32,673 nucleotides of DNA from a virus. The DNA lies in IMG/VR virus record IMGVR_UViG_3300046387_001273, positions 1 to 32,673 of that record. One strand, given 5' to 3'. Numbering within the stretch: position 1 is the first letter of the stretch; every line of letters begins with the position of its first letter. The translations under genes were made by a program, and so were the position numbers. Under the pieces are notes generated by a model. The model was not told the origin of the DNA. It saw only the letters and a list, made by a program, of their open reading frames with translations, and did no database searches. Shown here piece by piece: positions 9,801 through 27,201 of this stretch.

Positions 9801-11581
9801 GTAAATATACTGATAGTCAGGGGCAAATTCAGGAAAAAGATAAATTAAGTATTTTAGTAGACAAGGATTTGACTAATTTGCCTAGCATAAGAAATGTTGA
9901 AATTGTTATCAACGTAGGCTTGGATAATGAAAAATATGAAACTATAAACCAAAGAGCTAAAGTAGAAAAAAGTCAAGAAGATCAAGATGTAGACATAGAT
10001 TCTATTTATTCTCCGCAAATACTTAGATTTGAAGGTCGAGTTTTTGTTGATGAAGAGTTAGACGAAAAAGGGCCTCAGGGACAAAAAACTTTAATAACTG
10101 ATTTAGATTTAAGGATGAGTTTTGGTTTAGATTTGGGGACAAATACTATAAAAATTTATAAGCATGGATTGAAAGATGGCGATCGAGTTAGGTTTTCATC
10201 TTTAGGTTTATTGCCATCTGGTTTAAATGTAGATAAGAGAGGGGCAAATGCCTATTTTGTAGTAAATTCTACAAGAAATACCTTTAAAGTTTCTGAGCAA
10301 GAAAATGGATCAGAAGTTAATATAATTGACAGCGGTAAAGATTATTTTCTTAATGAAGGTGGAGAGCATTTTGTTTGTGTGGAAAGTGTAGGTCAGTCTA
10401 TTTCCCCTGTGACTTTATTAGCGTTTAAACAACTGGAAATCGGTACTCCATTTTCATTAAATGGTTTATTTGCTACTAGCGGTTCTCGCGGACAAGACTC
10501 ATCTAACGTAGGTGTACTAAATAATATTTTTGTGGATAAACCCGGTAATCCCGAAAAAAATAAATTGTATGAATCTAGTTTGTTTGGAACATTAATTGAT
10601 GTAGGTGACGACTGGTTTTATACTTTTAGTTTCGGTTGGGTATATTTAGGCCAACTAACAGGGCAGCCTAATACTGGAGAGGAAGGTTTTTGGTTTTGGT
10701 TGACAAATGTGGGATGGGCGTGGACTAATTATGATATATCTGAAATTTCTAACTCCCCGAATAAAAGAGTTGGTTGGTGGTATTTAGATTTAAGAGATAA
10801 GTCAATGTGGGCTGCAGTAATTTACGAGCAAAATAAACCTGATCCCGTTAAGCTATATGTGTATGATAATGTTGATGGTTATTCAGTTGGTGAATCATAT
10901 AAATTGGGCGATAAGGAATTTGATATTGTAGATGTGAGTGAAAAATATATAGGACTTAAATTGACTTCAGGAGATAATAGTACTGATACACCAGGTGAAA
11001 TCCCTGAAGAATTGTCGGGGAACTCGTATAGTTCTTCGAATCCGGGCTATAATGAATGTGAAATTTTTTCTATAGAAAAAAAATCTCAAGATCTATCTGT
11101 GCAAAATAAAAATTCTATAATTATTAAGTTGATTGATAACCATGGCGTTGATCTATTTGCAAATAGAAATATAAGTATTAAAAATTTTAATTCTTCTGAG
11201 CAGGATTTAGATTCACAAATAAATAAACAATGGAATACAATTTATGTTGATGCTAATACAATTGAGTTGATCGATTCTCATGAAGTATTTAATTCAATTG
11301 ATTCTGCTTCAATAGTAGATAAGGGTGAAATATTTTTTACTGAAGATATTAATATTAAAACCTCGAGAATTTTTCAAACACAATTATTTAGGACTCTTGG
11401 GGTTAAAGAGCTTGATAATAATCAATTCGAGGTTCAGGGCATAGAGTATAGCCAGAGTAAATTTGATATGGTTGATAAAGATGCCTCTATACAATTACCT
11501 TTAATGCCGATACCTCCTCAGGCTAATATGAGTCTACCTGAAGCTCCTGAGGATTTAATTCTAACAGATTTAAGCGTATAA
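6839..11581 (+). CDS. gpI-gpJ fusion: tail tip assembly and receptor-binding baseplate hub protein
   Basis: A 1580-residue fusion of lambda-type gpI and gpJ. Residues 1-100 form the gpI beta-grasp (ubiquitin-like) domain, starting VRLYGELGKKF and ending IHILPVPKGG. A hydrophobic stretch (about 101-143) follows, then the gpI C-terminal signature IPVPLGYGLLKIGSANI. J begins near residue 214 with EYIDLLCEGPIAGLV and continues with the diagnostic NNPAWVFYDLLTNYRYGLG near 589 and the hub domains after it. In lambda, I and J are separate genes. A Trp-rich module at about 1258-1326 (DWFYTFSFGWVYL ... GFWFWLTNVGWAWTN ... GWWYLDL) is extra. The frame stops after LPEAPEDLILTDLSV, the first strand of a fibronectin III domain that continues in the next gene (TAATG junction). 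J forms the tail tip and contacts the receptor. Confidence 0.87.
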   Translation: MKKVRLYGELGKKFNSSWELNVSTIQEALSAIEANSSGFFEHTVREHVKGNKYIILLKDPLKVESENDAVDSLITKNNLNSEIKSDEIHILPVPKGGAVASTVIGGFWVNMIGKGVLATVLTVATYVAIAVAISFITQALFKPPAPPKPGTKVSSKSLLLAGQRNRQAQGIPVPLGYGLLKIGSANIDAKVSTFNLKRNSKSKSSVLESYSTTEYIDLLCEGPIAGLVDKNGNLLTTTDIREGIYLNNVQIKNTVSSGEIESFNYVLNEDDELPKLKKGLSSDSDALSSNISYTIQYGTQLYGPGPYLGGTAKSVYNNFESAIKKQAFIFSHAITDRNVSKITIQFAVNMMQMNKDPGDTLSDSIRFVIFYTKNGKRINILDPSSDINSNDIHYLEGTPNSDEVNGKKITKGLQKIQVGDNYFFMIQGLATSFYEFSISVKYDPGILFVDNSEQLNFSVVKLTSEFDQSVDSSGSVSYDNPNGNNSTFLGHVGGIMRQKSIKIPYIQESIEEKVIYPHTAAVKIKFDSKNFNNIPVRSYHIKMKKILVPSNYEPESRTYNGPWNGLFAGQGDGESVFSIPDEKRVWSNNPAWVFYDLLTNYRYGLGKYGVEDLMVDKWQLYKIAKYCDELVETNYPVETTNRLPLAFTTENVLDQNSHENRLRRYKNPPGAFYIKIKLDQFRHPDRSSNESGDFIPFSYTEGDFLKDFGDRNQFKGKKIAFFIHKHNYTDDQILPSNNVQSALAKDSVTRKGEYDIEERFIVDSQITNGEMLVLVTGPTFASNSSSYKNADANITIGACATQLNHSIVEPRFESNLYLTEQSEAINALNSLASLFRGMVTYTAGKISVVQDSKKTPIMLFNNSNVRKKEGFSYSGFAKNKKVTASLVRFNNKERNYKPDVVYEEDAAAMQIYGYIEKETMGMGITSRSMARRLAKWVLASSNLESEKIQFVTGSEGSFLFPGSLFEVSDENRSGDSTSGRILNLFFKSKYTDSQGQIQEKDKLSILVDKDLTNLPSIRNVEIVINVGLDNEKYETINQRAKVEKSQEDQDVDIDSIYSPQILRFEGRVFVDEELDEKGPQGQKTLITDLDLRMSFGLDLGTNTIKIYKHGLKDGDRVRFSSLGLLPSGLNVDKRGANAYFVVNSTRNTFKVSEQENGSEVNIIDSGKDYFLNEGGEHFVCVESVGQSISPVTLLAFKQLEIGTPFSLNGLFATSGSRGQDSSNVGVLNNIFVDKPGNPEKNKLYESSLFGTLIDVGDDWFYTFSFGWVYLGQLTGQPNTGEEGFWFWLTNVGWAWTNYDISEISNSPNKRVGWWYLDLRDKSMWAAVIYEQNKPDPVKLYVYDNVDGYSVGESYKLGDKEFDIVDVSEKYIGLKLTSGDNSTDTPGEIPEELSGNSYSSSNPGYNECEIFSIEKKSQDLSVQNKNSIIIKLIDNHGVDLFANRNISIKNFNSSEQDLDSQINKQWNTIYVDANTIELIDSHEVFNSIDSASIVDKGEIFFTEDINIKTSRIFQTQLFRTLGVKELDNNQFEVQGIEYSQSKFDMVDKDASIQLPLMPIPPQANMSLPEAPEDLILTDLSV

Positions 11582-14500
11582 TGTCAAGAACAGCTCTAGG
11601 TGTAGAATTTAAAATAAATGATCTCGATGCAGAATACGAGGTTGTTGGTACGTCCGATAATTATTCTTTTCAATATGAACTTGGTAGAGGTTCCGAACTC
11701 GTGGATGAAGAAGGGGATACTGTTTTTAAAGAAGTTCCTCTTCAGGGTAATTATGGAGTGTTTGACGTTAGGGTTTTCGCAGTAAGTGATATAGGTGTTA
11801 GATCTGAATTCATTCAAGATAGAATTGAAATATTTCCAAATTTCTTAGAAACAACGTTTACTTTTTCTGATATAAATATAGATAATTTGCCAGCCGACGC
11901 GAGTGTTGGTAAAGAAGTTATATTACAACCTTCGTCTCAAGGTGATCCGCTTCATATAAGATCTGAATACGTTGGTAGGAAAACTGAAATATCTTGGAGT
12001 TTGATAGCTCCTTTTGGTCATCCTAATGAAGGAGAGGTTATGTCTAATGAACTTCTTGGTGATTCTTTCTTTTCTAAATTTTCTTTATCTTTTAGAACGG
12101 GAGAAAATGGAGAAGCTATAGATGATGCTACATTAGCCTCTTCTGAGTATTTAAAATACCATCTTTTATCTGACGACGTGCTAGGGGCCTTGGATAATTA
12201 TAGGGAATTTTCTTTAAGTTTAGAGGAGCCTTTTTTTGATGAATTAAATATCGATAGAACTCTAGCTATAGAAATTGTAGCTCATGACAAGTTTGATAGA
12301 ACAACAACAGGTGTCCTTACTGGAATAAACTATCCTTCTGTTATTGGTAACTTTACATATAATATGCGGGGCGCAGAATTTAATGCATCTTATTTTTGTA
12401 ATGACACCGATTTTATGAATTTAAATTGCCAGGGTTTTTATATACAGCAAGGTATTGAACTTCATAGCGATAAGAGTGTATCGGAAAATTTAGATTATTA
12501 TACATCGTTGCAAAATGCACCTAGATACTCCGAGTTAGAATCGGTATTTTATGGTATAGGTGATAGGGTATTATATACAGACGGTAGAGTATATGAAGCC
12601 AAAAACAATCATCAAAATAATCCTTTTTCTACTGCTCCTCCCTCGACAGATTTTTGGGCCGATTTAGGAGAACCACCATTTTTTGAATCTATTGGCAAGG
12701 TTGGATCAAAGGATTCATTTATTCATCAGCAAAAATTTGGATTTGATTATTATTATTCATTTGCTCCTGTTGATGAATATGGTATACAAGATTATGTTAA
12801 TCTAACCGAAAATGGTTTAGAGAAAGATGGTGTTCTTAAAAAAATTACTTCATCTATAAAGCTTGATAATATTAGGTTTAATGAAAGAGAAGATGATTTA
12901 ATTTTTAATTGGGACGTTGTTGATGGCGCTGGTAATTTAGTTGATTTAAATCAATATAAATTTATGTTTAAAAACGGGGTGGTTCCTGGAGTTGTGGGTA
13001 TTAGTGGTTCACTATTTGATCCTCATACAAATGAATTTTTAAGTGGAATTACAGAAGGAAATGACACACTTTCGTCTGATATAGATGATCTGGGTAATAG
13101 ACCTTTGGTTGAAAATATTCATAACGCTAAAGTTTTTTATAATTTTGAATATACTCGCGAATTAAATAATCAAATACATGGAGACAAGTATCTGCCAGAA
13201 AGTGGTAAAAGGTCCGTGGGTTTAGAGCTTGGTATTATTAATAATTTAGGAGAAATAATTAACAAAGAAAGAATTATTGCTGATAATCCTCCTCCTGTTA
13301 TATTGAGTGAAGGATTTACCTCTGACTCTCAAGATCAAGTTACTAAAGTAAAGTTTAATTTTAATTATGCAAACGGAAGAGGAGAAAAAACTAGTGAGGT
13401 TCTATTGTATAGATCTACTGGTAAAGACTTTTCTATAGTAGATTCAGAAGGAAAACTTATAAGAGAAGGTGAACCTTTTGTTAAGAGCGTTTTGGGCGCT
13501 GGAGATTTAACTTTTGGCAATAATATTAACCAAATTATAGACGATAAGCCACCTGTAGAAGAGGAAATTACTGGGTATTATTATAAAATATTGCCTTTTG
13601 ATGATTTTGGAAGTGGAGAGGTGTTTGGGTGCAATGATAATCGAGGAGAGTTGGATCTGGTTTGGGTTTTACCTTCAAATTATTATTCTAGTAGTCCTAA
13701 TGCGTATCCTGGTCCAGCTCTAAATATTACCACAGATGAAATACCTGGACCTGTCGTTGGCTTTGAGGGAGATACTGCATTTGAAAATTACTTTTTGAAT
13801 TGGTCAAAGCCTAATTACCAGATCGATGATGAAGGGGTAATAAATTTAGCTCCACTTGATATTGATTATTATGAAGTTTGGCAATCAATAGATGACAAAT
13901 TAGAAATTAATCAAGAAGGAAATTATTTGGGATCTTATGAAAACTCTACAGGATATAGAAGAATTGAAGGCGTTCAAAATACCGTAGGGGAGATTCCAGA
14001 AGAATTTTATGATTTTGCAGAGGATATTATTAATGCTGAGAATATTTTTAATATAGACGCGAATTCTTCAAAAATTCAAACTTTACATAAAGGCTCTGTA
14101 AATGATAAAAGATATTTTTGGGTAAGACCTGTTGATTATGCTGGTAATAAGGGGCCATTTACTGGGGTACAGAATTCTACTTCTGATTATGTTGAGGGTT
14201 TAGAGTTAATTCTTGGGCAGGCTAAGACAACAGATATAGCTAATTTTGAACAAGACATAACTAATGCATTTCCTAATGTTTTAGCTTTAGTTCCAAATAA
14301 TCCTTTTTCATCTAACGGAGCTGGAATATCTTGGGTGCAACACTTCCTGTATTATAACGGAGAAGGCTATGTTGTAACAGAAGGTAATACTCAAGATCCT
14401 TTTGTTTATTTTAGCGCTACAGGAGAGGGTGTTGTGAAATTAGTAGATTACGCTGAAGAAAATAATATAGATGTAGGGGATTTATATGAAGATCTTAATC

Positions 14501-17500
14501 TTACTGGACCGGGAGGTGGAGCTTTTGATAATAGCATTAATAATCCTTTAAGGAATATTGTTTATAGTGGAAGTTATAATACTTCTAGTTACCACCCTGC
14601 TGGAGAAGGAACTCAAGAGGGGGTCGATCAAAAAAAACCTTCTTTACTCGGTGAAACTGACGATTTCATTATAGCCAAAAATGCAGGCGGTATACCTGTT
14701 CCGATGTGGCATGCTTTCGCTAATGCAACAATAGGAACCGCTCATATACAGGACGCAGCAATCACTAACGCAAAAATTCATAATTTAACCGCAGATAAAA
14801 TAAGATCTGAAGTAATTCAAGGGCAAGATATTCAACTGGCCGAAGCTGGTGGAAAAGGACAGATTCGTAGTGCTGGTTTCCAAGGCTTAAATACTAATCA
14901 TGACGTAAAGAATGATCCAGGGTTTGCTTTGAGTGGCGACGGATCTTTCGTATTTCAAACTGAAAATGGTAAATTATTTTTTGACGATGACGTCTTAACT
15001 CTTTACGGAAAAATAAAGCAATTTGATGGTGCTGAATTTACGTTTTTAGATATAAGTGCAGAGCCTAAATCTTTTATGTATTTAGAATTATCGGATGGAT
15101 CTTATGAACCAGCAAGAAATACTGATAGTTGCATATTTACTGCTACTTATCAAAACAGTGAAATGACTCGAGATGATATACGTTTCAGGATATCATCTCC
15201 TGATGGTTTGGTGGATTTTGTGTCTTATGATGAGTTTGCCGAGAGTAAGAATAAGAATAAAGATTTACCTGAAGCTTACGATATATCTGGTTTTAGGTAT
15301 AATCCTCCAACTGATTTTACTGACTATGCTGGAACTACTCGAGCAAAAACTGCCAGAGCTACATTTGATGTCACTGGATTTAATGCTATGATTTCATATG
15401 ACACTGAAAATCCGAATAGAATTTTACCTAAATACGGATCTGTAGTTGTTCATGTTTCCGGAAAAGGAACTTCAATGGAAAGATCTCTTGCTGTAGATTT
15501 CGTTGCTGATGGTAAGTCAGCTACCTATATGGATTTAAGCGTAAATAATCAAATATATAATTATGATTACGATGGTAATTATGATCCTAGTGCAAACACC
15601 TTTAATAATAATACTTTATCTCTTACAACTGACTTAATAGATGAATTAGAGAGTGAAGCTAAAATTATCTTTTTTACTGGCCAGAACTTAAATCCTGAGA
15701 ATCTAATAAGGTTGAATTATAAAGAATATAACGATTTGGATCCAAGTTTCTTTATATCAGATGGTTACAATGTAAAGTATGGAAATAATATATATGAAGT
15801 TATAAAGGATCATAAAAAAGACCCAAATAAACTTCCCACTAATACGTCGTATTGGAGAGTTAACCCAAATCAGGATTCTATAAAAAAGTGGAATATTAAT
15901 GAAGATGAAGGGACTGCTGTGTTATCAAAATTTGACGAGGAGTTGGATACATTTAATAAGACTCCTTTTATTTGTAAAGCGTCTGCGGTACATGAAAATC
16001 AAGATATAGATCCTGATAGTGAAGCAGATGATCCTAAAGACTTACTTTTGGCTACTGATTTTGTTACGATTTATGGAAGTAAACCTGGTAATGACGCCTA
16101 TACGGTATTACTTGATAATGAAAATCATACATATGTTGCTGATGAGTTTGGGAAGGTTGCAGAAGGAATATTTGACGAAGGTAAAACAGCGGTCATTTTC
16201 AGAAGAGGTCATGAATACTATGACTACAAAAAATATGATGTTAATCCGCAGCCTAGTAGTGGTTATAGTGTAGGTACGATCACTAGCAATCCTTCGAAGC
16301 AATTAATATTTAAAGAAAACGAAGACAATTATGAAGTGCCAGATAGTGAAAAAGATAAATTTGTAATTAATAAACGTTATGGCGAGAACGTAACAAGGAT
16401 AGTTACTGATAGTTCTGGTAATCAACAAACAGTGAAGGTATTAGAAATAGAATTTTTGAATATTCCTGACTTGGATGACACAGTTGCCCTTAAGATTCCT
16501 GTTTTCGATAATAAATACAGAGGTAATGATTATGACAGCGACTTTCCTCCTGTTGAGTTTGAGAAAATATATACATTCTCAAAAGCGAAAGCAGGAAGTA
16601 GGAGTAGGGGTATTGAGATCGTCTCAGATTCTCAGACTTTAGTATATGATCAATTCGGCGTATTGAAAAACAATACTAGTGATATTACGGTTGGCGTTGA
16701 GCATTTTAATTTTTTTGATGGCGGTCAAAATATGCTGCTTGAGTTTTCTAGATACATAGATAATGAATGGAAGAGTATAACGAGCGAAAATGTAAGAGAG
16801 ATAACTTTTTCAACAGGAGCATCAAATGCCTTCTTAAAAATACCGGCAACATATGATGATAAGAATTTACCCATAAGAATTAAATGCAAAGCAAAAGATG
16901 GTCCGTCAAGCGATAGCGATGAATTAACAGAAGTCGCAGAAGATAGATATACTATTTTCGGTTTAAAAGAAGGATCTAATGCCCTGACGGTCGTTATGTC
17001 TCAAGAATTTTCAAACGTACCTGTAACCTTGGGAGCTAATAACCAAGAAAATTTAAATTTTGATAATACTTTAAATATTATATCTGTTTTTCAGGGAGCT
17101 ACATCTTTTGTTTATCAAAGTGAAGAGGGAAATTTAGCACCTAAACAATTTCATATTAAAACTACTACATCAGGAGTAACTCTTGATTCTAGCATTCAAG
17201 AACCCGAGTTTAAGGTAGCCAGTTGGACATCTAGCTCCAATATAGCTCATATAGATTACGAAATTACTGTAAAGGATCAAGATGGACAATTAAAAACTTT
17301 TACAAAAAGACAAAGTTTAAGTAACAATAAAGAGGGTAGCCCTGCTAGAGCGGTTGATCTGACCGCATCTCCAGCTCAGGCAGTATCTTACAATGAAGAT
17401 GATTTAACCAGAATAAATTCTGGTGATATAACTGTAAGAGCTACCCCTCGTAATAATCTTGGGGGGGATGGATTTTATAAATATTCAAAAAGTGGAGTCG

Positions 17501-19011
17501 GCACACTAAAAAAAATAGGGGGAGGATCTTATACCGAAGGTTATTACATTGAAGGTTTAAATCAAATTCTTTATGAGCCTCCCTCTGATATTAAAGGTAC
17601 TTCAGAAAGTCTTTTAGCGACTATAACTTGTAGTTTTTCTGAAACAGGTCCGTCCGGCTCTGAATTAGCTTCAGATCAAATAAGTATTTTTGCTTTAAGA
17701 GCTGGGTCCAATGCCACTACCATTGTATTAAGTAATGAGCATCATGGCTTAACTTATGATTTAGTAAATGATCCGTCGCCAACTGGATCTGGTACGAGTA
17801 TTCAAGTTTTCCTTGGAAGCGTTTCGTTAACACCCAGGAAATATGGAAGCGGAGCGGGCGAAGTAACTAGAGGATCCCAGCTATCGGATGGAGAATTTTT
17901 TGTTCAAGCAACCCCTTCTTCAAATATAACTGTTGGATCGCAAACAATTTCAAGTAAAACATTAATTTTTGCTGACGCTTCTGGATTTAAGTCTACAGAT
18001 GATGGAGCTTTTATTAGCTATGATATTACAGTTAAGGATTTTAAGAGTCAAGTTTCTTCATCTCCAATTACTAAAAAACAAACTTTCTCTGTAACTGATA
18101 AAGGCAATAGGGGTAACCGAGGTTCTGGACCAATCTTTAGGGGAGAATGGAAACCTGAGACTTCTTATACAGGAGCTGTAGGAGATAATCTTAATGTAGA
18201 TGTAGTATCTTATGGTAATGACTATTATATCGCTAAGACCGATATCGTGGGAAATACCGCAAATCCTAATCCTTCTGTCGACACAAGTCGTTGGCAAGCC
18301 CTGAATAGCTTTTCTAATGTTGCAACAGGATTATTAGTAACAGAATCATCTATAGTAAAAGATATTATTACTTTAGGAGAACAATCTGACTATTCTAACC
18401 CTGATGGCAAAGGTTATATACGAACTCATGATAATAGTTTCTTTATCGCCGGAATAGTTGATGGTAAAAATAAATTTAAATTAGGAAAAAGTCAAGGTGA
18501 TGACATAAATATAAGTTACGCAAATATTAGTAATGGAACTATTGCTGATGCGAATATTGCAAGAGGAACTATTTCTAACGTAAGTTCAATCTCTTCAACA
18601 GGAAGTATAGCTAATAACAATATAACTTTATCAGCATTGGGCGATATCACGTGCAATAATCTTTTCGCTACCAATGATGTTATCGCGCAATATACTCAAT
18701 CAGATATATTACTTAAGGATAATATCTTTAAGATCGAAAATCCTCTATCTAAAATTCTATCATTAAGAGGTGTAGAATTTGAATGGAACAGTAAATCCAA
18801 GAATCATGTAGGAAAAGATTATGGACTAATAGCTCAAGAAGTTCGTGAAGTTGCACCTCATTTAGTAATGAAAAGATCTGATGGATATCTTGGCCTTAAA
18901 TACGAAGGTATAATTCCATTTTTAGTTGGAGCAATCAAGGAGCAACAAGATAAAATTTCTTCCCTAGAAAGAGATATAAAAGAAATTAAAAGTAAAATTA
19001 ACCGTTTATAA
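11581..19011 (+). CDS. Giant tail tip/fibre protein: continuation of J with Ig-like repeats and C-terminal S74 chaperone
   Basis: A 2476-residue virion protein. The first 90 residues complete the fibronectin III domain begun at the end of the J gene (YGVFDVRVFAVSDIGVRSE is a typical last strand pair). Another FnIII-like domain lies at about 724-865. Three short aromatic modules resembling carbohydrate-binding modules sit near 324-368, 1393-1430 and 2187-2240. Six Ig-like repeats start near 1306, 1496, 1676, 1791, 1919 and 2035; several open with TIFGLKEGSNALTVVMS-type strands. The C-terminus is a peptidase S74 intramolecular chaperone with the Ser-Lys dyad at Ser2374 and Lys2379 (SDILLKDN), then GVEFEWN, GLIAQEV and a coiled-coil tail. 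Known S74 domains trimerise fibres and then cut themselves off before that serine. The 3' end overlaps the convergent gene by 14 bases. Confidence 0.8.
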   Translation: MSRTALGVEFKINDLDAEYEVVGTSDNYSFQYELGRGSELVDEEGDTVFKEVPLQGNYGVFDVRVFAVSDIGVRSEFIQDRIEIFPNFLETTFTFSDINIDNLPADASVGKEVILQPSSQGDPLHIRSEYVGRKTEISWSLIAPFGHPNEGEVMSNELLGDSFFSKFSLSFRTGENGEAIDDATLASSEYLKYHLLSDDVLGALDNYREFSLSLEEPFFDELNIDRTLAIEIVAHDKFDRTTTGVLTGINYPSVIGNFTYNMRGAEFNASYFCNDTDFMNLNCQGFYIQQGIELHSDKSVSENLDYYTSLQNAPRYSELESVFYGIGDRVLYTDGRVYEAKNNHQNNPFSTAPPSTDFWADLGEPPFFESIGKVGSKDSFIHQQKFGFDYYYSFAPVDEYGIQDYVNLTENGLEKDGVLKKITSSIKLDNIRFNEREDDLIFNWDVVDGAGNLVDLNQYKFMFKNGVVPGVVGISGSLFDPHTNEFLSGITEGNDTLSSDIDDLGNRPLVENIHNAKVFYNFEYTRELNNQIHGDKYLPESGKRSVGLELGIINNLGEIINKERIIADNPPPVILSEGFTSDSQDQVTKVKFNFNYANGRGEKTSEVLLYRSTGKDFSIVDSEGKLIREGEPFVKSVLGAGDLTFGNNINQIIDDKPPVEEEITGYYYKILPFDDFGSGEVFGCNDNRGELDLVWVLPSNYYSSSPNAYPGPALNITTDEIPGPVVGFEGDTAFENYFLNWSKPNYQIDDEGVINLAPLDIDYYEVWQSIDDKLEINQEGNYLGSYENSTGYRRIEGVQNTVGEIPEEFYDFAEDIINAENIFNIDANSSKIQTLHKGSVNDKRYFWVRPVDYAGNKGPFTGVQNSTSDYVEGLELILGQAKTTDIANFEQDITNAFPNVLALVPNNPFSSNGAGISWVQHFLYYNGEGYVVTEGNTQDPFVYFSATGEGVVKLVDYAEENNIDVGDLYEDLNLTGPGGGAFDNSINNPLRNIVYSGSYNTSSYHPAGEGTQEGVDQKKPSLLGETDDFIIAKNAGGIPVPMWHAFANATIGTAHIQDAAITNAKIHNLTADKIRSEVIQGQDIQLAEAGGKGQIRSAGFQGLNTNHDVKNDPGFALSGDGSFVFQTENGKLFFDDDVLTLYGKIKQFDGAEFTFLDISAEPKSFMYLELSDGSYEPARNTDSCIFTATYQNSEMTRDDIRFRISSPDGLVDFVSYDEFAESKNKNKDLPEAYDISGFRYNPPTDFTDYAGTTRAKTARATFDVTGFNAMISYDTENPNRILPKYGSVVVHVSGKGTSMERSLAVDFVADGKSATYMDLSVNNQIYNYDYDGNYDPSANTFNNNTLSLTTDLIDELESEAKIIFFTGQNLNPENLIRLNYKEYNDLDPSFFISDGYNVKYGNNIYEVIKDHKKDPNKLPTNTSYWRVNPNQDSIKKWNINEDEGTAVLSKFDEELDTFNKTPFICKASAVHENQDIDPDSEADDPKDLLLATDFVTIYGSKPGNDAYTVLLDNENHTYVADEFGKVAEGIFDEGKTAVIFRRGHEYYDYKKYDVNPQPSSGYSVGTITSNPSKQLIFKENEDNYEVPDSEKDKFVINKRYGENVTRIVTDSSGNQQTVKVLEIEFLNIPDLDDTVALKIPVFDNKYRGNDYDSDFPPVEFEKIYTFSKAKAGSRSRGIEIVSDSQTLVYDQFGVLKNNTSDITVGVEHFNFFDGGQNMLLEFSRYIDNEWKSITSENVREITFSTGASNAFLKIPATYDDKNLPIRIKCKAKDGPSSDSDELTEVAEDRYTIFGLKEGSNALTVVMSQEFSNVPVTLGANNQENLNFDNTLNIISVFQGATSFVYQSEEGNLAPKQFHIKTTTSGVTLDSSIQEPEFKVASWTSSSNIAHIDYEITVKDQDGQLKTFTKRQSLSNNKEGSPARAVDLTASPAQAVSYNEDDLTRINSGDITVRATPRNNLGGDGFYKYSKSGVGTLKKIGGGSYTEGYYIEGLNQILYEPPSDIKGTSESLLATITCSFSETGPSGSELASDQISIFALRAGSNATTIVLSNEHHGLTYDLVNDPSPTGSGTSIQVFLGSVSLTPRKYGSGAGEVTRGSQLSDGEFFVQATPSSNITVGSQTISSKTLIFADASGFKSTDDGAFISYDITVKDFKSQVSSSPITKKQTFSVTDKGNRGNRGSGPIFRGEWKPETSYTGAVGDNLNVDVVSYGNDYYIAKTDIVGNTANPNPSVDTSRWQALNSFSNVATGLLVTESSIVKDIITLGEQSDYSNPDGKGYIRTHDNSFFIAGIVDGKNKFKLGKSQGDDINISYANISNGTIADANIARGTISNVSSISSTGSIANNNITLSALGDITCNNLFATNDVIAQYTQSDILLKDNIFKIENPLSKILSLRGVEFEWNSKSKNHVGKDYGLIAQEVREVAPHLVMKRSDGYLGLKYEGIIPFLVGAIKEQQDKISSLERDIKEIKSKINRL

Positions 19012-19820: not shown

Positions 19821-20978
19821 TTATTTTTTGTTATAAAGTTTTAAGTTGATTGCGTTGTCCCAAAAGTCAGGTTCGTCTATAATTTTATTGTGCCTGCCAG
19901 GTATATCATTTTTCCATGCGCTTTTACTTGCGTAAAGCATGTTGTTTGATGATATGATTTGAGCGCTTTTATAACGAGTATTATCACATATTTTTTGATA
20001 ATTGTCAATGTCTTTTTTTGTTTTCTTTTTTGATAAGTGAACTTCCCAATCGAAGAATTTTAATCTTGCTTCGTTGATATGGTTTTCGTCTTCGCAAATT
20101 AATTTTAGTTTTATTCCCATTTTTTGTACTAATTTAAAAAAGTCTTCATTGTCATCGGGTTTTATATAATAATTTATTTGATGAACATTATCTCTTATTG
20201 CTTGTAAGTAATTATATTGCATTGGTTGGTCTAGAAAAATGTTTACTTTCCTAGAGTATGCCCATTTGGCTATATTTACTTCATCAAAATGTTCGTTGGC
20301 TAAAATATTCGCCGGTTGATTTGGCGCAAAACTTTTTGGCATAACATGATTGGGTATAACACTTAAAGAGCCTGCGTGGTATGCGCTTCCTATATGAAAA
20401 GTTTCTATGCTGTTTAAATCATTTGCTATATTCAATAGATCTAGTACAGGTTTTGCTACTTGTTCTGGCATTATAGAATTAATCGATTTAGGATACTCTT
20501 GATCCGAGAATGAAGGTTTGGATTTTGACCAATCAGGCTCAAGTAAAACATGGTCGTTACTGTCTCCCCAGAATGGTTTACAACATTCTTTGAATAGTAC
20601 TGAATATAGGCTAACTATTTTTTTATTGAATCCCGATGCAACGTGGCTACTGAATGAATCTGTACCAAGATGTAATAGAGAATTTTTTATTAAATAAGAT
20701 GCTTGTTTTATTGTTGTTTTTCCTTGGTAATGTATGCAGTGATTAATTTTTTCTTCATTCCTTGAACCTATTTGAATTATATCAATTCCTTCTTTTTTCA
20801 AAAATGGGTGCATTAAATCAAGTACATCATTATAGTAGTCATACGTTTTGGATTGTATCCTATTACTTGTGTGCAATGTTATGTATTTATCGCTTTCAGT
20901 TGGGTAGTAAGAGGTTTCTATAAACGGTTTATCAATTTTTATTCCGCAAGAAAGTGCGTATTGCTCTAAAAGGTGCAT
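19821..20978 (-). CDS. Glycosyltransferase family 9-like C-terminal half plus unknown domain (split gene)
   Basis: A 385-residue protein. Residues about 1-180 match the C-terminal (nucleotide-sugar binding) half of GT9/heptosyltransferases: an early helix LLEQYALSCGI, the strand pair IDIIQIGSR, then IKQASYLIKNSLLHLGTDS, SSHVASGFNKKIVSLYS and a Pro/Trp loop. The matching N-terminal half is at the end of the upstream gene in another frame. One extra base in the TTTT run at the junction (minus strand ACCTTTTAGAG) would give one continuous protein. The remaining 200 residues (from about IETFHIGSAYHAGSLSVIP) have no family I recognise; they contain alternating strands and helices and a Lys-rich patch (HLSKKKTKKD). 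The ATG overlaps the upstream frame by 13 bases. Alone, this product lacks half of the GT-B fold. Confidence 0.7.
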   Translation of the reverse strand: MHLLEQYALSCGIKIDKPFIETSYYPTESDKYITLHTSNRIQSKTYDYYNDVLDLMHPFLKKEGIDIIQIGSRNEEKINHCIHYQGKTTIKQASYLIKNSLLHLGTDSFSSHVASGFNKKIVSLYSVLFKECCKPFWGDSNDHVLLEPDWSKSKPSFSDQEYPKSINSIMPEQVAKPVLDLLNIANDLNSIETFHIGSAYHAGSLSVIPNHVMPKSFAPNQPANILANEHFDEVNIAKWAYSRKVNIFLDQPMQYNYLQAIRDNVHQINYYIKPDDNEDFFKLVQKMGIKLKLICEDENHINEARLKFFDWEVHLSKKKTKKDIDNYQKICDNTRYKSAQIISSNNMLYASKSAWKNDIPGRHNKIIDEPDFWDNAINLKLYNKK

Positions 20979-22873
20979 AGTTCGAATTGTATTTTATCTT
21001 CTGTATTGTGTGGAAAGTTTATTATTCTTTGAGTGCCTAAAAATGGTATAAAAACCATATTAAAATATCCTTGCGACTCCCCTTGTCCTTCCATTGCTGG
21101 CAAATTAGCCAGCGAATCATGGTAAGGGATGCATTTGTGAACGTAAGGGTTTCCGTCTAGAATTTCAAAATATTGAGGTTTTGTTGCATAGTATATATTA
21201 TAATTTGGATATTGTTTTTTGAAATTAGGAAGTAATGATGTTGATAGATATATATCACCAATTCTCTCTGGCATAACTATAAGTAATCTACTACCTTCGT
21301 CTTCTTTATCTAAAAATTCAGTTAATTCAACTTTTTTATTTTCTTTATTTTCTTTTTCTGCTACGCTTCTAAAATATTTAATTACATCTTTTCTTGATAA
21401 ATCAGTGTTTAATCTATTCATCCAATGTTTATGACCGTCTTCTAATTCATTGGTTTCTACTTTTAATATATTTTTATATAAGTCTGTTATCCACTCTGAG
21501 TCACTTTCTATTTCAGGCGGTTCATAAAAAGGATCTCTCTCTTCGATTTCGAAATTGAAGTCCCAATTTACTTCTGGCATGTTATCTATAATTTGTTCAA
21601 GCTTTTTTCCAATAATATCTGTACTGTAGTTATTGAGAACAAACTCTCTAGCTTTTTTACCCATAATTTCTTTTTTTGAACTAGGCATATTTAGCGCTTT
21701 TCTGAGTTGGTTTGCTATGCTTTTAGGGTCAGTGCTGGCTTTTATAAATTGAGTTCCAGGTTCTCTATATTCTGTCCAGGATAAAGGTAAGCTATTAGCT
21801 TCTTCAGTGCAACAGTCTTCTCCGCAGCTGTAATTAGTTACTAATGTGATTAATTCTGTTAATTTAGCTTCTTGTATTGGTATTTCTTGACCTCCGCTAG
21901 TAAACGGATGACAGTATACATCCATCAAATTGTAAATCTCATTTAATTGATTTTCATTAACTCCGGCTTTTGTGCTTGTCGTGGACTGAGATTTTTCTTT
22001 TCCACAGAAACCGCAATCCTGCTTCTCTCCTTTGAAGGGTTTAATTTCGTACTCTTTGCAATGTTCACAGAAGTATGTCGTTAAAATTTGTTCTGGATCT
22101 ATCCCTTTTTCTTTTATTAATCTATTAATATCCCAACCTTCTCCCCAATGAGTATGAAGTAAAAGTTTTGGCTTGCATTCTGGGTTTTGTTTACAAAAGA
22201 TTTTAAATCCTTCAAGTAGATTGGGGACACTTTTTCTTAATTGGTTTCTAAAAACAAAACCTATTACAAAATCTTCTTGAGAAATACTCTGTTTCTCTCT
22301 TAATAAAGATCGTGATTTTTTATTCATTTTGAAGAAATTACCTGTATCTAATGCTCCCCTCAAAGTCTTTACATGTTCTTGACCTGATTGGTTTAATGAT
22401 TTTTGCGCAAAACTTGCCCATGTATAAAAATTTTTAATCTTCGGGGCAGACTGTATGGCGTCTGGTAGTATTGGTAAGCTGTCAAGGGTGGTCCATATCA
22501 TGCAGTTAATGTTGTTCCACCATGTTTTTTCTGTGTACCCAGAAAATGCCCAGATATCCTCTATGCCTATATATACATCAGGTTTCTCTTCCTCTATTAT
22601 CTTATCTATCATTTCTGCGCCATATCCAGCGCTTCTAGCTAATTGAGGATCTTTATTTAGTTTTGATAGTAGAGATGGACTGTTTGGCAGAGAGCCCTGA
22701 GCTCTCCATGGTAATGATCGGAGTGATGGGTCACCCCATCTTATTCCATTGCAAAATTCTATTAATTCATATTTGCCTGTTTTTTGAAGATGTATTAGAA
22801 TATTTTTGGCGTGCTTGCCGAAACCTGTATAAGCTTTGCAGTGATTGCTGTGTATTAATACCTTTTTCTTCAT
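20966..22873 (-). CDS. GT4-family glycosyltransferase with zinc-ribbon insert, fused to the N-terminal half of a GT9 domain
   Basis: A 635-residue protein. The N-terminus (KVLIHSNHCKAYTGFGKHAKN) is the first strand and Gly-loop of a GT-B glycosyltransferase. The second Rossmann half follows near residue 200 (IGFVFRNQLRKSVPNLLEGF), with a donor-site segment PFTSGGQEIPIQEAKL. Between them lies an insert with two CxxC pairs (FCEHC and DCGFC), a likely zinc ribbon that is unusual in this family. From about residue 525 a new domain starts, SRLLIVMPERIGDIYLSTSL, ending in YFNMVFIPFLG. This is the N-terminal half of a GT9/heptosyltransferase, whose other half is the next gene. It probably transfers sugars onto a phage or host glycan, or onto DNA; the acceptor cannot be read from sequence. 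The start is a TAATG overlap. Confidence 0.78.
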   Translation of the reverse strand: MKKKVLIHSNHCKAYTGFGKHAKNILIHLQKTGKYELIEFCNGIRWGDPSLRSLPWRAQGSLPNSPSLLSKLNKDPQLARSAGYGAEMIDKIIEEEKPDVYIGIEDIWAFSGYTEKTWWNNINCMIWTTLDSLPILPDAIQSAPKIKNFYTWASFAQKSLNQSGQEHVKTLRGALDTGNFFKMNKKSRSLLREKQSISQEDFVIGFVFRNQLRKSVPNLLEGFKIFCKQNPECKPKLLLHTHWGEGWDINRLIKEKGIDPEQILTTYFCEHCKEYEIKPFKGEKQDCGFCGKEKSQSTTSTKAGVNENQLNEIYNLMDVYCHPFTSGGQEIPIQEAKLTELITLVTNYSCGEDCCTEEANSLPLSWTEYREPGTQFIKASTDPKSIANQLRKALNMPSSKKEIMGKKAREFVLNNYSTDIIGKKLEQIIDNMPEVNWDFNFEIEERDPFYEPPEIESDSEWITDLYKNILKVETNELEDGHKHWMNRLNTDLSRKDVIKYFRSVAEKENKENKKVELTEFLDKEDEGSRLLIVMPERIGDIYLSTSLLPNFKKQYPNYNIYYATKPQYFEILDGNPYVHKCIPYHDSLANLPAMEGQGESQGYFNMVFIPFLGTQRIINFPHNTEDKIQFELCTF

Positions 22874-23461: not shown

Positions 23462-23489
23462 ATTATACCTCTATGCCTTTATACTTCAA
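23462..23489 (-). promoter_or_regulatory. Sigma70-type promoter for the ssDNA-binding protein operon
   Basis: On the minus strand TTGAAG (23484-23489) and a perfect TATAAT (23462-23467) are 16 bases apart. The predicted start is near 23455, leaving a leader of about 10 A-rich bases with no Shine-Dalgarno before the ATG at 23445. The -35 overlaps the stop codon of the helix-turn-helix gene. Confidence 0.6.
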
Positions 23490-23806
23490 GTTTTATCTAA
23501 AATTTTACCTCTTATTATCATATTACCTTTGTTTTGCACCATGGTTTTTAATTGGGTACCTGTCTTGTTACAAGTCCTGAATCTACGTATGTGTCCTGCG
23601 CTTGATAATCTAGATAGGGAAGCTGATACCTTCCCATGAGACATTCCTCCAAGATCGTCTCCGATTTTTTTATTTGAAAAAAATATAGGTTCTCCGTGAC
23701 TAGCCTTAGTAAGTAAGTAGGAGTATATCAATAAATCATTTCCTATCAACTTTCCTTCAACTACATCATCTTGGATAACTAATGGCATTTGTATAAATTT
23801 CTTCAT
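23486..23806 (-). CDS. Winged helix-turn-helix DNA-binding protein
   Basis: A 106-residue protein built around one winged-helix domain of the HTH_36 / replication-initiator N-terminal type. LLIYSYLLTKAS is the first helix, IFFSNKKIGDDLGGMSHGKVSASLSRL gives helices two and three, and SAGHIRRFR is the wing. It is the first gene of the leftward operon and sits next to an AT-rich, palindromic, divergently transcribed region, so it may act on its own control region or at an origin there. No enzymatic domain follows. The start chosen is the ATG at 23806. A second in-frame ATG six codons on has no Shine-Dalgarno either, and the promoter at 23815-23843 fits the first ATG as a near-leaderless start. 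Repressor, activator and initiator roles cannot be told apart. Confidence 0.62.
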   Translation of the reverse strand: MKKFIQMPLVIQDDVVEGKLIGNDLLIYSYLLTKASHGEPIFFSNKKIGDDLGGMSHGKVSASLSRLSSAGHIRRFRTCNKTGTQLKTMVQNKGNMIIRGKILDKT

Positions 23807-23814
23807 CGATAATA

Positions 23815-23843
23815 ACTATATACAGAAATAAATAAATTGTCAA
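23815..23843 (-). promoter_or_regulatory. Strong sigma70-type promoter giving a near-leaderless transcript
   Basis: On the minus strand a consensus TTGACA (23838-23843) is followed after 17 bases by TATAGT (23815-23820). Only 8 bases separate the -10 from the ATG at 23806, so the predicted start (near 23808) leaves a leader of about two bases. It should drive the leftward early operon. Confidence 0.75.
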
Positions 23844-23859
23844 GCTATATCCAAAAAAG

Positions 23860-23888
23860 TGAATGCTCGGCGTTCAAAAAAATGAACG
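23860..23888. promoter_or_regulatory. Operator-like cluster of three alternating half-sites
   Basis: Three copies of a TGAA(C/T)G half-site alternate in direction: TGAATGC (23860-23866, plus), GCGTTCA (23870-23876, minus) and TGAACG (23883-23888, plus). The last two form a perfect inverted repeat CGTTCA / TGAACG around six A's. The cluster lies upstream of both divergent promoters and closer to the leftward one, a sensible place for binding of the adjacent HTH protein. Confidence 0.5.
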
Positions 23889-23946
23889 TTGTTAATAATA
23901 TACGTATACATAAATATAATTAATTATTAATATATAAATATAAGAA
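23889..23946. other. AT-rich tract with short palindromes, possible replication origin or unwinding element
   Basis: This intergenic tract is almost pure A/T and contains two perfect palindromes: TATACGTATA (23899-23908) and ATAATTAATTAT (23916-23927). It lies between divergent operons that carry replication-type genes, directly beside the half-site cluster. An origin, or simply an AT-rich upstream element for the rightward promoter, would both fit. Nothing here encodes a protein. Confidence 0.35.
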
Positions 23947-23975
23947 TTGACATTTAGTTGAAATGGTGATAGAAT
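23947..23975 (+). promoter_or_regulatory. Strong sigma70-type promoter whose predicted start is the ATG itself
   Basis: Consensus TTGACA (23947-23952), a 17-base spacer and TAGAAT (23970-23975). The A of the ATG at 23982 lies seven bases past the -10, the usual start position, so the mRNA should be leaderless. It should drive the 23982-27201 operon. Confidence 0.78.
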
Positions 23976-23981
23976 GCTTGA

Positions 23982-24278
23982 ATGAAATTTTTAGACTTAA
24001 GTGAAGGGAAGTTTTATAGAATAAAATGCTCTGATTGGTCGGTTATCATTCAGGCAAATAACGAGAATGAGGCGTGTGTTGACGCACTTGTTGAAATGTT
24101 AGAGAGAAGAGGTAAGAACTTAAAACTATCTTCTGTGATGATATCCGAAGAATTACAAGCTGATGTTATGAGCGAAAATTACGACGAAAGCGTATCTTAT
24201 CACTCTGTATCCAAAATGCTTACTGATGCAGGGCAACATGAATTATCCTCTAGTATGAGGGAAATATTCGGGTCATGA
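23982..24278 (+). CDS. Small conserved-looking phage protein, function unknown
   Basis: A 98-residue protein that I cannot assign. Residues 1-30 look like a small beta-rich start (MKFLDLSEGKFYRIKCSDWS), followed by a helix with NENEACVDALVEMLERRGK and a second half predicted to be two helices. There is one cysteine in each of the first two segments, and no membrane segment or catalytic motif. It is the promoter-proximal gene of the rightward operon, ahead of nucleotide metabolism and transcription genes. The start is fixed by the promoter at 23947-23975, because the predicted first transcribed base is the A of the ATG and no alternative in-frame start lies upstream. The 3' end overlaps the next gene by ATGA. 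Confidence 0.75.
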   Translation: MKFLDLSEGKFYRIKCSDWSVIIQANNENEACVDALVEMLERRGKNLKLSSVMISEELQADVMSENYDESVSYHSVSKMLTDAGQHELSSSMREIFGS

Positions 24279-24826
24279 AATCTAACATAATAGGAATAAG
24301 CGGATTGGCTAGATGTGGAAAAGATAGTTTTTTTAATATAGCCTCAAGTATACTAAGTAGTCAGAATATCAGAACAAGAAGATTTGCTTTCGCGGATTGC
24401 TTAAAAAGCGAGTGCAATGAAATACTTGAAAAATATACAGGTATATCAGCGTTTACGGAGAAAACCTCAGAAAAAGAAATAATTAGACCCCTACTGGTAA
24501 CTTACGGCACACATATAAGAAGAAAAATAAATCCGAACTGCTGGATAGATAAAATTAATGACGAAGTAAAATCATTCTCGATCAATGGAGTTTCATTCAT
24601 TACAGATGTTAGGTTTGAAAACGAAATAGACTGGGTGAGGGATATAGGAGGTAAATCGATACATATAACAAGAGAAGGTATATCTCCACCTAATAAAGAA
24701 GAAGCTGAAAACGACCCAATCCTATTAAATAAATCTGATATAAAATTCACTTGGAAAAACTTTGAAGAAACTAATAATTTAATAATATCGAAAATAGTTA
24801 AAGAAGTCATACAATCTATTTTATGA
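24275..24826 (+). CDS. Deoxynucleoside monophosphate kinase (T4 gp1-like)
   Basis: A 183-residue P-loop kinase that would convert dNMPs to dNDPs for phage DNA synthesis. The Walker A motif is GLARCGKDS (residues 10-18), in the GxxxxGKDS form typical of phage dNMP kinases. It is followed by FAFADCLK (about 38-45), a YGTHIRRKINPNCW block (about 77-90) typical of the family, and the Walker B-like VSFITDVRFENE with the Arg-containing FENE loop. The length is a little below T4 gp1. It overlaps the genes on both sides by ATGA, so it is translationally coupled to the small upstream protein and to the sigma factor. T4 gp1 also phosphorylates modified dCMP, but whether this one does cannot be read from sequence. 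Confidence 0.82.
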   Translation: MKSNIIGISGLARCGKDSFFNIASSILSSQNIRTRRFAFADCLKSECNEILEKYTGISAFTEKTSEKEIIRPLLVTYGTHIRRKINPNCWIDKINDEVKSFSINGVSFITDVRFENEIDWVRDIGGKSIHITREGISPPNKEEAENDPILLNKSDIKFTWKNFEETNNLIISKIVKEVIQSIL

Positions 24827-25419
24827 ATAAAGATATAGAAGATATCGAATTAATTAATAACTTACAGTCTCAAATTAATCAAAGAGAAAGTTTAGAGTTA
24901 CTAATCGAAAGGCATAGCGGTATATACCTAGATATGGTTAATTGTTACGCCAGCCCCAATAATCCCTACATAGATTATAACGAATTAATTAATGATAAGG
25001 AATACAAGATATACAACGCGGCAATTAAATTTGATAGCACTAAAGGAGCCAAGTTTAGCACTTACCTAGGAAATGAAACTAAGTGGATGTGCCTAAATAC
25101 TTATAATCGAAACAAAAGAAGACCTGTTTGGCATAGTGATCATATAGAAAATATGCCAAAAGATGATTCGCTTGAATGCGATTCCATTTCAGAAAGCATA
25201 AAACAAGACTTATTTAATAAAGTACTAAACGCAATATCCGAACATCCCGACACACGGGTTGAGAAAATTTTTAAAATGAGATATATTATAGGTCACAAAA
25301 ACAAAGTTATGCCATGGAAACAGATTGGTGACGAAATGAATCTAAGCATACAGGGGTGCATCAACATACACAACTCTGCAATTAAATCATTCCAAAATCA
25401 ATTAGAAAAAGAAGTATGA
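24823..25419 (+). CDS. Phage-encoded RNA polymerase sigma factor
   Basis: A 198-residue sigma70-family protein with region 2 and region 4 only, the compact form of phage late sigma factors. Region 2 covers about residues 27-95: LLIERHSGIYLDMVNCY, a DYNELI helix, IYNAAIKFDSTKGAKFSTYL (the most conserved sigma stretch) and a Trp/aromatic-rich end. Region 4 covers about 146-195: IFKMRYIIGHKNKVMPWKQIGDEM then LSIQGCINIHNSAI, a helix-turn-helix that would contact the -35 or an activator. Regions 1.1 and 3 are missing. It would redirect host RNA polymerase to phage promoters, a likely target being the GTGTA motif found before four genes here. It is coupled by ATGA overlaps to dNMP kinase and SSB, an early or middle position suited to switching on later genes. 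Confidence 0.78.
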   Translation: MNKDIEDIELINNLQSQINQRESLELLIERHSGIYLDMVNCYASPNNPYIDYNELINDKEYKIYNAAIKFDSTKGAKFSTYLGNETKWMCLNTYNRNKRRPVWHSDHIENMPKDDSLECDSISESIKQDLFNKVLNAISEHPDTRVEKIFKMRYIIGHKNKVMPWKQIGDEMNLSIQGCINIHNSAIKSFQNQLEKEV

Positions 25420-25801: not shown

Positions 25802-26857
25802 ATGAATAAATTAATATACAAAGCACCACTAAATTCTCTTTCATTCGGGAATGTTTCATACAATCTCCTTAAGCAAATGTTTAAAAAAAATATGGAAATA
25901 GCATTTTTTCCTAGGGGTAATGTAGATATAAGTTCATTTGAAGTTGTTCCTGAAGATTTTAAAGCGTGGCTGGAGGATAGCATAAAAAATAGATTCAACA
26001 AGTTAGATAAAGACTCAACCACCCTACAGATGTGGCATTTGAATGGATCCGAAGATAGAATTTCACATAGGCAGATATTGTATACATTTTACGAACTAGA
26101 TTCCCCAACGAATACAGAAAAAAAACTATGTAATTTTCAAGATAAAACTGTATTCAGTAGTAGTTATGCATCAAGTAAATTCAAGGATTCTCATTTTGCA
26201 CCGCTAGGTTTCGACGAATCCTTCTACGAAACTAATAAAACTTACATGCCAGACAAAATTCATTTTGGTTTAATGGGTAAATTCGAAAAAAGAAAACATA
26301 CAGAAAAAATAATTAGAGCATGGATTAAGAAGTATGGAAATAATTATAAATACCAATTAACTTGTTGCATAACGAATCCTTTTTTTAAAAAAGAACAGAT
26401 GGAGTCTTCAATAGCAAATATTTTAGAGGGCAAAAGATATGGAAATATAAACTTCATGCCTTTTTTACCTAAGAACAGTCAGGTAAATGACTTTCTTAAT
26501 GCGATAGATATTGACCTAGGCGGAATGAGTGGGGGAGAAGGGTGGAACTTACCATCCTTCAATGCTACCTGCTTAGGTAAGTGGAGTATAGTTCTTAATT
26601 GTACAAGTCATCGCGATTGGGCTACCTCCGAAAACAGTGTGTTAATTGAGCCCTTAGGTACAGAGCCTGTTTATGATGATATTTTCTTTCAAGAAGGAGC
26701 TTCCTTCAACCAAGGAAACATATATTCTTTTAATGAAGATCAATTTATTTCAGCTCTAGAAATTGCAGAAAATAAATGTAAAATAGTTAACGAAGAAGGT
26801 AAAAAACTCAAAGATGAATTCACTTACGAAAAAACCTTAAATAAAATACTAGAATAA
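25802..26857 (+). CDS. GT-B fold glycosyltransferase
   Basis: A 351-residue glycosyltransferase, probably transferring a sugar from a nucleotide donor. The second Rossmann half is clear: KIHFGLMGKFEKRKHTEKII (about 152-171) is the usual 'ig.vG.....Kg...l' element, and GGMSGGEGWNLPSFNATCLG near 238-258 matches the 'S..EGfglp.lEAmacG' donor loop of GT4 enzymes, with Asn replacing the second catalytic-type Glu. The first half (ISHRQILYTFYELDS, SSSYASSKF) is the acceptor side. It sits between SSB and the FmdB-like gene in the rightward operon. With the split GT4-GT9 this is the second glycosyltransferase locus in the window. The acceptor (virion protein, host lipopolysaccharide or DNA) is unknown. 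Confidence 0.75.
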   Translation: MNKLIYKAPLNSLSFGNVSYNLLKQMFKKNMEIAFFPRGNVDISSFEVVPEDFKAWLEDSIKNRFNKLDKDSTTLQMWHLNGSEDRISHRQILYTFYELDSPTNTEKKLCNFQDKTVFSSSYASSKFKDSHFAPLGFDESFYETNKTYMPDKIHFGLMGKFEKRKHTEKIIRAWIKKYGNNYKYQLTCCITNPFFKKEQMESSIANILEGKRYGNINFMPFLPKNSQVNDFLNAIDIDLGGMSGGEGWNLPSFNATCLGKWSIVLNCTSHRDWATSENSVLIEPLGTEPVYDDIFFQEGASFNQGNIYSFNEDQFISALEIAENKCKIVNEEGKKLKDEFTYEKTLNKILE

Positions 26858-27201
26858 TGCCTTTATATACATACGAACACCCTGAAACAGAAGAAACCGT
26901 AGATGTCATTCAAGGAATGAATGACGAACATATTTACGTAGACAAAGAAGGAATTAAATGGAATAGAGTATGGAATATACCTCAAGCAAATATAGATTCA
27001 GATACAGATCCTTTTGATAACCAAGCTTTTCTACAAAAAACATCAAACCAAAAAGTTTCATATGGAGACCTTATAGATCAAAGTAGAGAGTTGAGTCAAA
27101 AAAGAAAAGATAAATTAGGATACGATCCAGTTCAAAAAAAATACTTTAAAGAGTATAAGAAAAAAAGAAATGGTATAAAACACCATCTAGATACAGACTA
27201 A
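26857..27201 (+). CDS. FmdB-like small protein lacking the zinc-binding cysteines
   Basis: A 114-residue protein. The N-terminal 50 residues follow the FmdB/zinc-ribbon layout: MPLYTYEHPETEETVDVIQG replaces the 'MPxYeYrC..Cg..fe..q.' start, and KWNRVWNIPQ replaces the 'lkRvfs.p' end. All the cysteines that would hold zinc are absent, so the ribbon must be held differently or has lost its role. The rest is a charged helix (about 65-95) and a Lys/Arg-rich C-terminus (KEYKKKRNGIKHHL) that could bind nucleic acid. It overlaps the glycosyltransferase gene by TAATG and ends the operon just before the GTGTA-type motif. No specific function is known to me. Confidence 0.55.
   Translation: MPLYTYEHPETEETVDVIQGMNDEHIYVDKEGIKWNRVWNIPQANIDSDTDPFDNQAFLQKTSNQKVSYGDLIDQSRELSQKRKDKLGYDPVQKKYFKEYKKKRNGIKHHLDTD

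Follow-up and report, generated by a model that had tools for sequence, protein, structure and literature searches.

Divergent phage genes with leaderless messages have been described before. In Yersinia phage PY54, rapid amplification of cDNA ends showed cI and cro to be transcribed as leaderless messages, one species per gene, with the AUG at the 5' end (PMC4488713). The cI mRNA of lambda, made from PRM, has also been named as leaderless (PMC9031893), and a paper on giant phage AR9 describes phage transcripts as 'often leaderless' (PMC5312081). Kasugamycin blocks the translation of leadered messages but spares that of leaderless ones (PMC5230787). Among bacteria, leaderless ('TA-led') genes are recognised by a -10-like box some 10 bp ahead of the start codon; they account for about 20% of genes in Actinobacteria, about 40% in Deinococcus-Thermus and a smaller share in other groups (Zheng et al. 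2011, PMC3160421). Here we describe the control region between two divergent operons in IMG/VR virus record IMGVR_UViG_3300046387_001273, a 32.7-kb record that was analysed over its whole length of 32,673 nucleotides (hereafter the window). The region belongs to a large, uncultured, tailed phage, and a leaderless reading of both operons is well supported by sequence comparison and, in our judgement, very likely correct.

The locus resembles PY54 cI/cro in its divergent, probably regulatory genes and their predicted leaderless messages. In PY54 a strong -10 box immediately precedes the ATG of cro, an UP-like stretch rich in A and T is present, and the operator is a palindrome of 16 bp (PMC4488713); the present locus has comparably placed -10 boxes, with a candidate UP element and candidate operators. 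The differences are substantial: the PY54 pair is the repressor/Cro switch of a temperate lambdoid phage that uses Shine-Dalgarno sequences at its other genes (matches of at least 4 bases in 62% of genes), whereas the two genes studied here, encoding a winged-helix protein and a 98-aa protein, are unrelated to that pair and their layout is lineage-wide. Neither protein matches the CI or Cro family, which sets the locus apart from a lambda-type cI/cro switch. Lambda cI differs in being one gene of a Shine-Dalgarno-using phage, maintained in lysogeny. TA-led genes share the placement of the -10 box but belong to cellular genomes, and none of the groups named above is shown to be the host here. 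What is new is therefore not divergent leaderless phage genes as such, which were already known, but their lineage-wide use. The genes and promoter elements of the control region are as follows.

23486..23806, minus strand: gene for the 106-aa winged-helix protein, at the head of the leftward operon
23807..23814, minus strand: leftward 8-nt gap TATTATCG, from the -10 box to the ATG at 23806
23815..23820, minus strand: leftward -10 box TATAGT, 17 bp from the -35 box, read directly
23838..23843, minus strand: leftward -35 box TTGACA, read directly, with TTGAC kept in relatives
23947..23952, plus strand: rightward -35 box TTGACA, read directly
23967..23975, plus strand: rightward extended -10 box TG-a-TAGAAT, with TG at 23967-23968 and TAGAAT at 23970-23975
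23976..23981, plus strand: rightward 6-nt gap GCTTGA, from the -10 box to the ATG at 23982
23982..24278, plus strand: gene for the 98-aa protein, without significant family match, at the head of the rightward operon

The sequence-only reading had proposed two divergent promoters, TTGACA-17-TATAGT leftward and TTGACA-17-TAGAAT rightward, and both lie exactly where it placed them; the rightward spacer of 17 nt ends in TGa. With hexamers 17 bp apart that are conserved in relatives, both are promoters of the sigma-70 type. If transcription begins, as usual, 7 nt past the -10 box, the leftward start point would fall at 23808, giving a 2-nt leader, and the rightward one at 23982, the A of the ATG itself, giving no leader, in agreement with the earlier expectation of starts about 2 bases before the ATG at 23806 and on the ATG at 23982. 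In the mechanism that we propose, two strong sigma-70-type promoters would drive the two divergent operons, with RNA polymerase starting at, or within about 2 bases of, the A of the start codon, as the conserved spacing suggests. The first gene of each operon would be translated from a leaderless mRNA via its 5'-terminal AUG, without a Shine-Dalgarno sequence, while later genes, most of which touch or overlap the preceding gene, would probably be translated by coupling. The same layout is a general habit of the lineage, found at many operon heads.

AT-rich DNA could be expected to give promoter-like hexamers everywhere, two of which happened to lie near start codons, and the local count agrees with such a view: a 3-kb region holds 13 promoter-like sites, against a mean of 14.8 (standard deviation 3.1) in shuffled sequences. 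The two ATG-proximal promoters are the only 11/12 matches among these 13 sites, but since the total is no higher than in shuffles, the hexamers alone are not evidence and a comparison with relatives is needed. Used directly as queries against IMG/VR, the two flanking proteins returned one relative or none; the lineage was reached through a scan with the sigma-like protein of the rightward operon, after which profile searches located the divergent gene pair in many contigs. Once identical copies were removed, 29 distinct control regions were available, namely the window and 28 relatives.

Promoter-to-ATG distance in related phages, the check that had been suggested for a leaderless layout, held on both sides: on each, 27 of the 29 control regions have 6-10 nt between the -10 box and the start codon, with a modal distance of 6-7 nt. 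The rightward distances are 6 nt (14 regions), 7 nt (9), 8 nt (2) and 9, 10 and 16 nt (one each), with one region lacking a match, and the leftward ones are 6 nt (7 regions), 7 nt (10), 8 nt (8) and 9, 10 and 12 nt (one each), again with one region lacking a match. If leaderless genes are marked by a gap of about 6-9 nt between -10 box and start codon, the window's 8 nt and 6 nt both qualify. All but one of the 56 promoters retain the 17-bp spacer, and the rightward extended TG is found in 23 of 28 scored control regions. Pairwise identity within the near clade is 0.96 (rightward) and 0.91 (leftward) for the -35 box, 0.78 and 0.74 for the -10 box, and near random, at 0.31 and 0.35, for the gap between the -10 box and the ATG; the genes themselves are about 0.70 identical over their first 30 nt. 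Across relatives the intergenic region measures between 165 and 267 nt, showing that insertions and deletions do occur, but rarely between promoter and ATG. A gap whose length is kept while its sequence is free fits a leaderless constraint, unlike a leader carrying signals, and it is this combination that supports the earlier claim that both divergent operons are leaderless. Given spacing and hexamers conserved in so many control regions on each side, chance is already refuted by the comparative data, and we attach next to no probability to it.

The layout recurs well beyond this gene pair. At 41 loci of a more distant clade we counted 41 strong promoters at a distance of 5-9 nt from an ATG; Markov shuffles give an expectation of 3.3. 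Four large contigs, examined over stretches of 140, 120, 180 and 180 kb, carry 18, 10, 24 and 15 promoters at this distance, where the Markov expectation is 0.5, 0.4, 1.0 and 1.0; the resulting 15- to 36-fold excess is a further argument against a chance origin. Eight control phages served for comparison, most of them tested on 50 kb and PY54 on 26 kb. No such site was found in lambda, HTVC008M, Synechococcus phage S-CBS4, Thermus phage P23-45, PY54 or Cellulophaga phage phi14:2, and one each in P-SSM2 and crAss001. The two known leaderless genes of PY54 thus escape the measure, which makes it a conservative one. Thermus phage P23-45, whose middle and late transcripts are reportedly leaderless, differs from the present lineage in its strong use of Shine-Dalgarno sequences (matches of at least 5 bases in 45% of genes) and in lacking a TTGACA/TATAAT peak at 5-9 nt within the 50 kb examined. 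In several loci of the lineage, perfect 12/12 promoters precede a short conserved gene whose product begins MPMY or MPLYT. In the distant clade, homologues of this MPLYTYE gene (in L029, L062, L064, L067, L077 and L083) have their own perfect TTGACA-17-TATAAT promoter, with 8 nt between it and the ATG, while the window's copy (26857-27201) directly abuts the preceding gene.

Leaderless phage mRNAs have mostly been described one at a time, as for lambda cI and PY54 cI/cro, while here there are 10-24 fusions of promoter and start codon per stretch of 120-180 kb. In the open-access literature we found no report of a phage lineage using leaderless promoters at such density. Leaderless initiation thereby becomes testable as a phage-wide strategy with a simple sequence marker, which also allows start codons to be placed exactly. 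It would, moreover, constrain the host, whose ribosomes must initiate efficiently without Shine-Dalgarno sequences. A tentative broader proposal, to which we give somewhat less than even chances, is that leaderless initiation is the lineage's default for operon-leading genes, with stop-start coupling and few Shine-Dalgarno sites elsewhere, either because the host itself initiates mostly without Shine-Dalgarno sequences or because infection favours leaderless mRNAs, which would put the phage's translation ahead of the host's.

Several points weigh against the leaderless reading. Both start points are deduced from the spacing of the -10 box, by promoter and start-site rules that are assumed to be those of ordinary sigma-70 and from which the host's may differ. 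The relatives share ancestry, so that the counts given above are not independent. There are also exceptions among them: the rightward promoter of L063 lies 16 nt from the ATG, no leaderless rightward promoter was found in L070, and the leftward gene of L031 would require a TTG start. Shine-Dalgarno matches of at least 5 bases occur in 4.5-13% of genes in the large contigs, compared with about 3% expected. Finally, a second promoter-like site upstream of the rightward gene, TTAATA-17-TATAAT (10/12) at 23892-23920, could yield a leadered rightward transcript.

This last site, together with the sigma-like gene in the rightward operon, which makes alternative promoters possible, would suit a scheme in which main transcription comes from promoters further upstream, or from a modified or phage-coded polymerase, so that the mRNAs are leadered and the ATG-proximal promoters are minor. 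We regard this as unlikely. The site is embedded in AT-rich DNA, and the aligned relatives retain the ATG-proximal boxes but not this promoter; the longer transcript would likewise lack a usable Shine-Dalgarno sequence.

The irregular leftward start of L031, which has no ATG at the expected place, speaks for another alternative, namely that the start codons are misassigned and translation begins at downstream codons, in which case the promoters would provide an ordinary short leader. Throughout the clade, however, the alignments of both proteins begin at the first Met. Most relatives have their next in-frame ATG at codon 39 or 40 of the 98-aa gene (codon 13 in 8/22) and at codon 55 of the winged-helix gene (13/22), inside conserved sequence. 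The two genes show excess variation at codon third positions, and in the window the 98-aa open reading frame is immediately preceded by a stop codon (TGA-ATG), with only 9 nt open in frame upstream of the 106-aa one. From the alignment, the third-position variation and the closed upstream frames we take the start codons to be sound, and misassignment to be very unlikely. Homologues starting downstream with a conserved Shine-Dalgarno sequence, an outcome that would have spoken for ordinary leaders, were looked for among the relatives and not seen.

Leaderless initiation at the two genes also agrees with what lies in front of them. Judged by duplex energies and by the relatives' sequences, neither open reading frame has a Shine-Dalgarno sequence at a usable distance, as expected of leaderless genes. 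The sole G-rich stretch, GGTGAT at 23964-23969, shares bases with the extended -10 box and is expected to lie upstream of the mRNA. Folding of the first 60 nt showed nothing unusual. The sequence-only reading had set the locus against phage operons in general, which it took to carry Shine-Dalgarno leaders; this holds for most control phages but not for the present lineage, in which nearly all genes go without. Few window genes have a Shine-Dalgarno sequence, and matches of at least 4 bases occur at a rate of 0.186 in the near clade (0.168 shuffled) and 0.134 in the far clade (0.154 shuffled), while lambda, Pelagibacter phage HTVC008M and P-SSM2 reach two to three times the shuffled rate. Shine-Dalgarno sequences are rare, not absent, in the lineage, and their lack at these two operons is not special within it.

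The identity of the host was approached from several sides. Among cultured phages, neither DNA nor protein searches turned up anything close: for tail and terminase the best matches are about 24-32% identical and point to no host, and the best-covering terminase relatives are about 24-28% identical. The lineage terminase, on the other hand, has hundreds of matches in IMG/VR. Two bacterial hosts were considered and rejected. Phage contig L028 (PBIO01000001.1) was found in a metagenome-assembled genome (MAG) of Halobacteriovorax, but that MAG uses Shine-Dalgarno sequences (matches of at least 4 bases at 53% of genes) and the phage contig, which looks misbinned, does not, and no further match was found in 291 genomes drawn from the phylum of Halobacteriovorax. 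Phage contig L029 was found in a Flavobacteriaceae MAG whose genes lack Shine-Dalgarno sequences, with no match in any other of 397 genomes of the family. The two bin placements contradict each other and neither repeats. None of 20 records contained the host-marker genes WhiB, ribosomal S21 or psbA, and a search for tRNAs in the window and seven loci was likewise negative. We presume the lineage to be marine, from the seawater-like sources of the two bins and from general knowledge of such contigs.

Besides the promoters, the control region contains three further candidate elements.

23849..23864, no strand: proximal imperfect palindrome ATCCAAAAAAGTGAAT, candidate operator upstream of the leftward promoter, conserved in relatives
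23872..23887, no strand: distal palindrome GTTCAAAAAAATGAAC, candidate operator, conserved in relatives
23930..23946, plus strand: AT-rich stretch ATATATAAATATAAGAA adjoining the rightward -35 box, candidate UP element from the relatives' alignment

The two palindromes stand in tandem, at a spacing of 23 bp, on the upstream side of the leftward -35 box. Both are conserved within the near clade, and the pair probably binds a regulator. Relatives' variants of the distal palindrome carry the paired half-sites GTTC/GAAC and GTAC/GTAC. The regulator might perhaps be the leftward operon's own winged-helix protein, although autoregulation is a guess. Sites of the palindrome elsewhere could not be demonstrated, as matches were only 2-3 times a rough expectation and mostly degenerate.

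The 106-aa protein has weak PHROGs matches to DnaD-like loader and replication initiation families, and its AlphaFold model, with a predicted local distance difference test score (pLDDT) of 80, finds winged-helix matches in the PDB (best E 0.006); it is a probable DNA-binding regulator or replication-related protein. In the rightward operon the 98-aa gene is followed by genes for a deoxynucleoside monophosphate (dNMP) kinase, a sigma-like factor and SSB. The sigma-like protein (24823-25419) has PHROG matches to phage sigma factors, and Sigma70 region 2 was detected in 3 of 13 relatives; it could switch transcription later in infection. Stop-start contact between neighbouring genes is high in the window, at 65%, but in the lineage at large it is not above that of other phages. 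Both operons contain glycosyltransferase-like genes, one supported by Pfam (20966-22873) and two recognised by eye (19821-20978 and 25802-26857), and relatives such as L001 carry other sugar- and nucleotidyltransferase-like genes at this position. The minor tail genes of the window are lambda-like, and a very large protein of 2476 aa is encoded at 11581-19011, whose C-terminal end bears, by eye only, a likeness to a self-cleaving tail-fibre chaperone domain.
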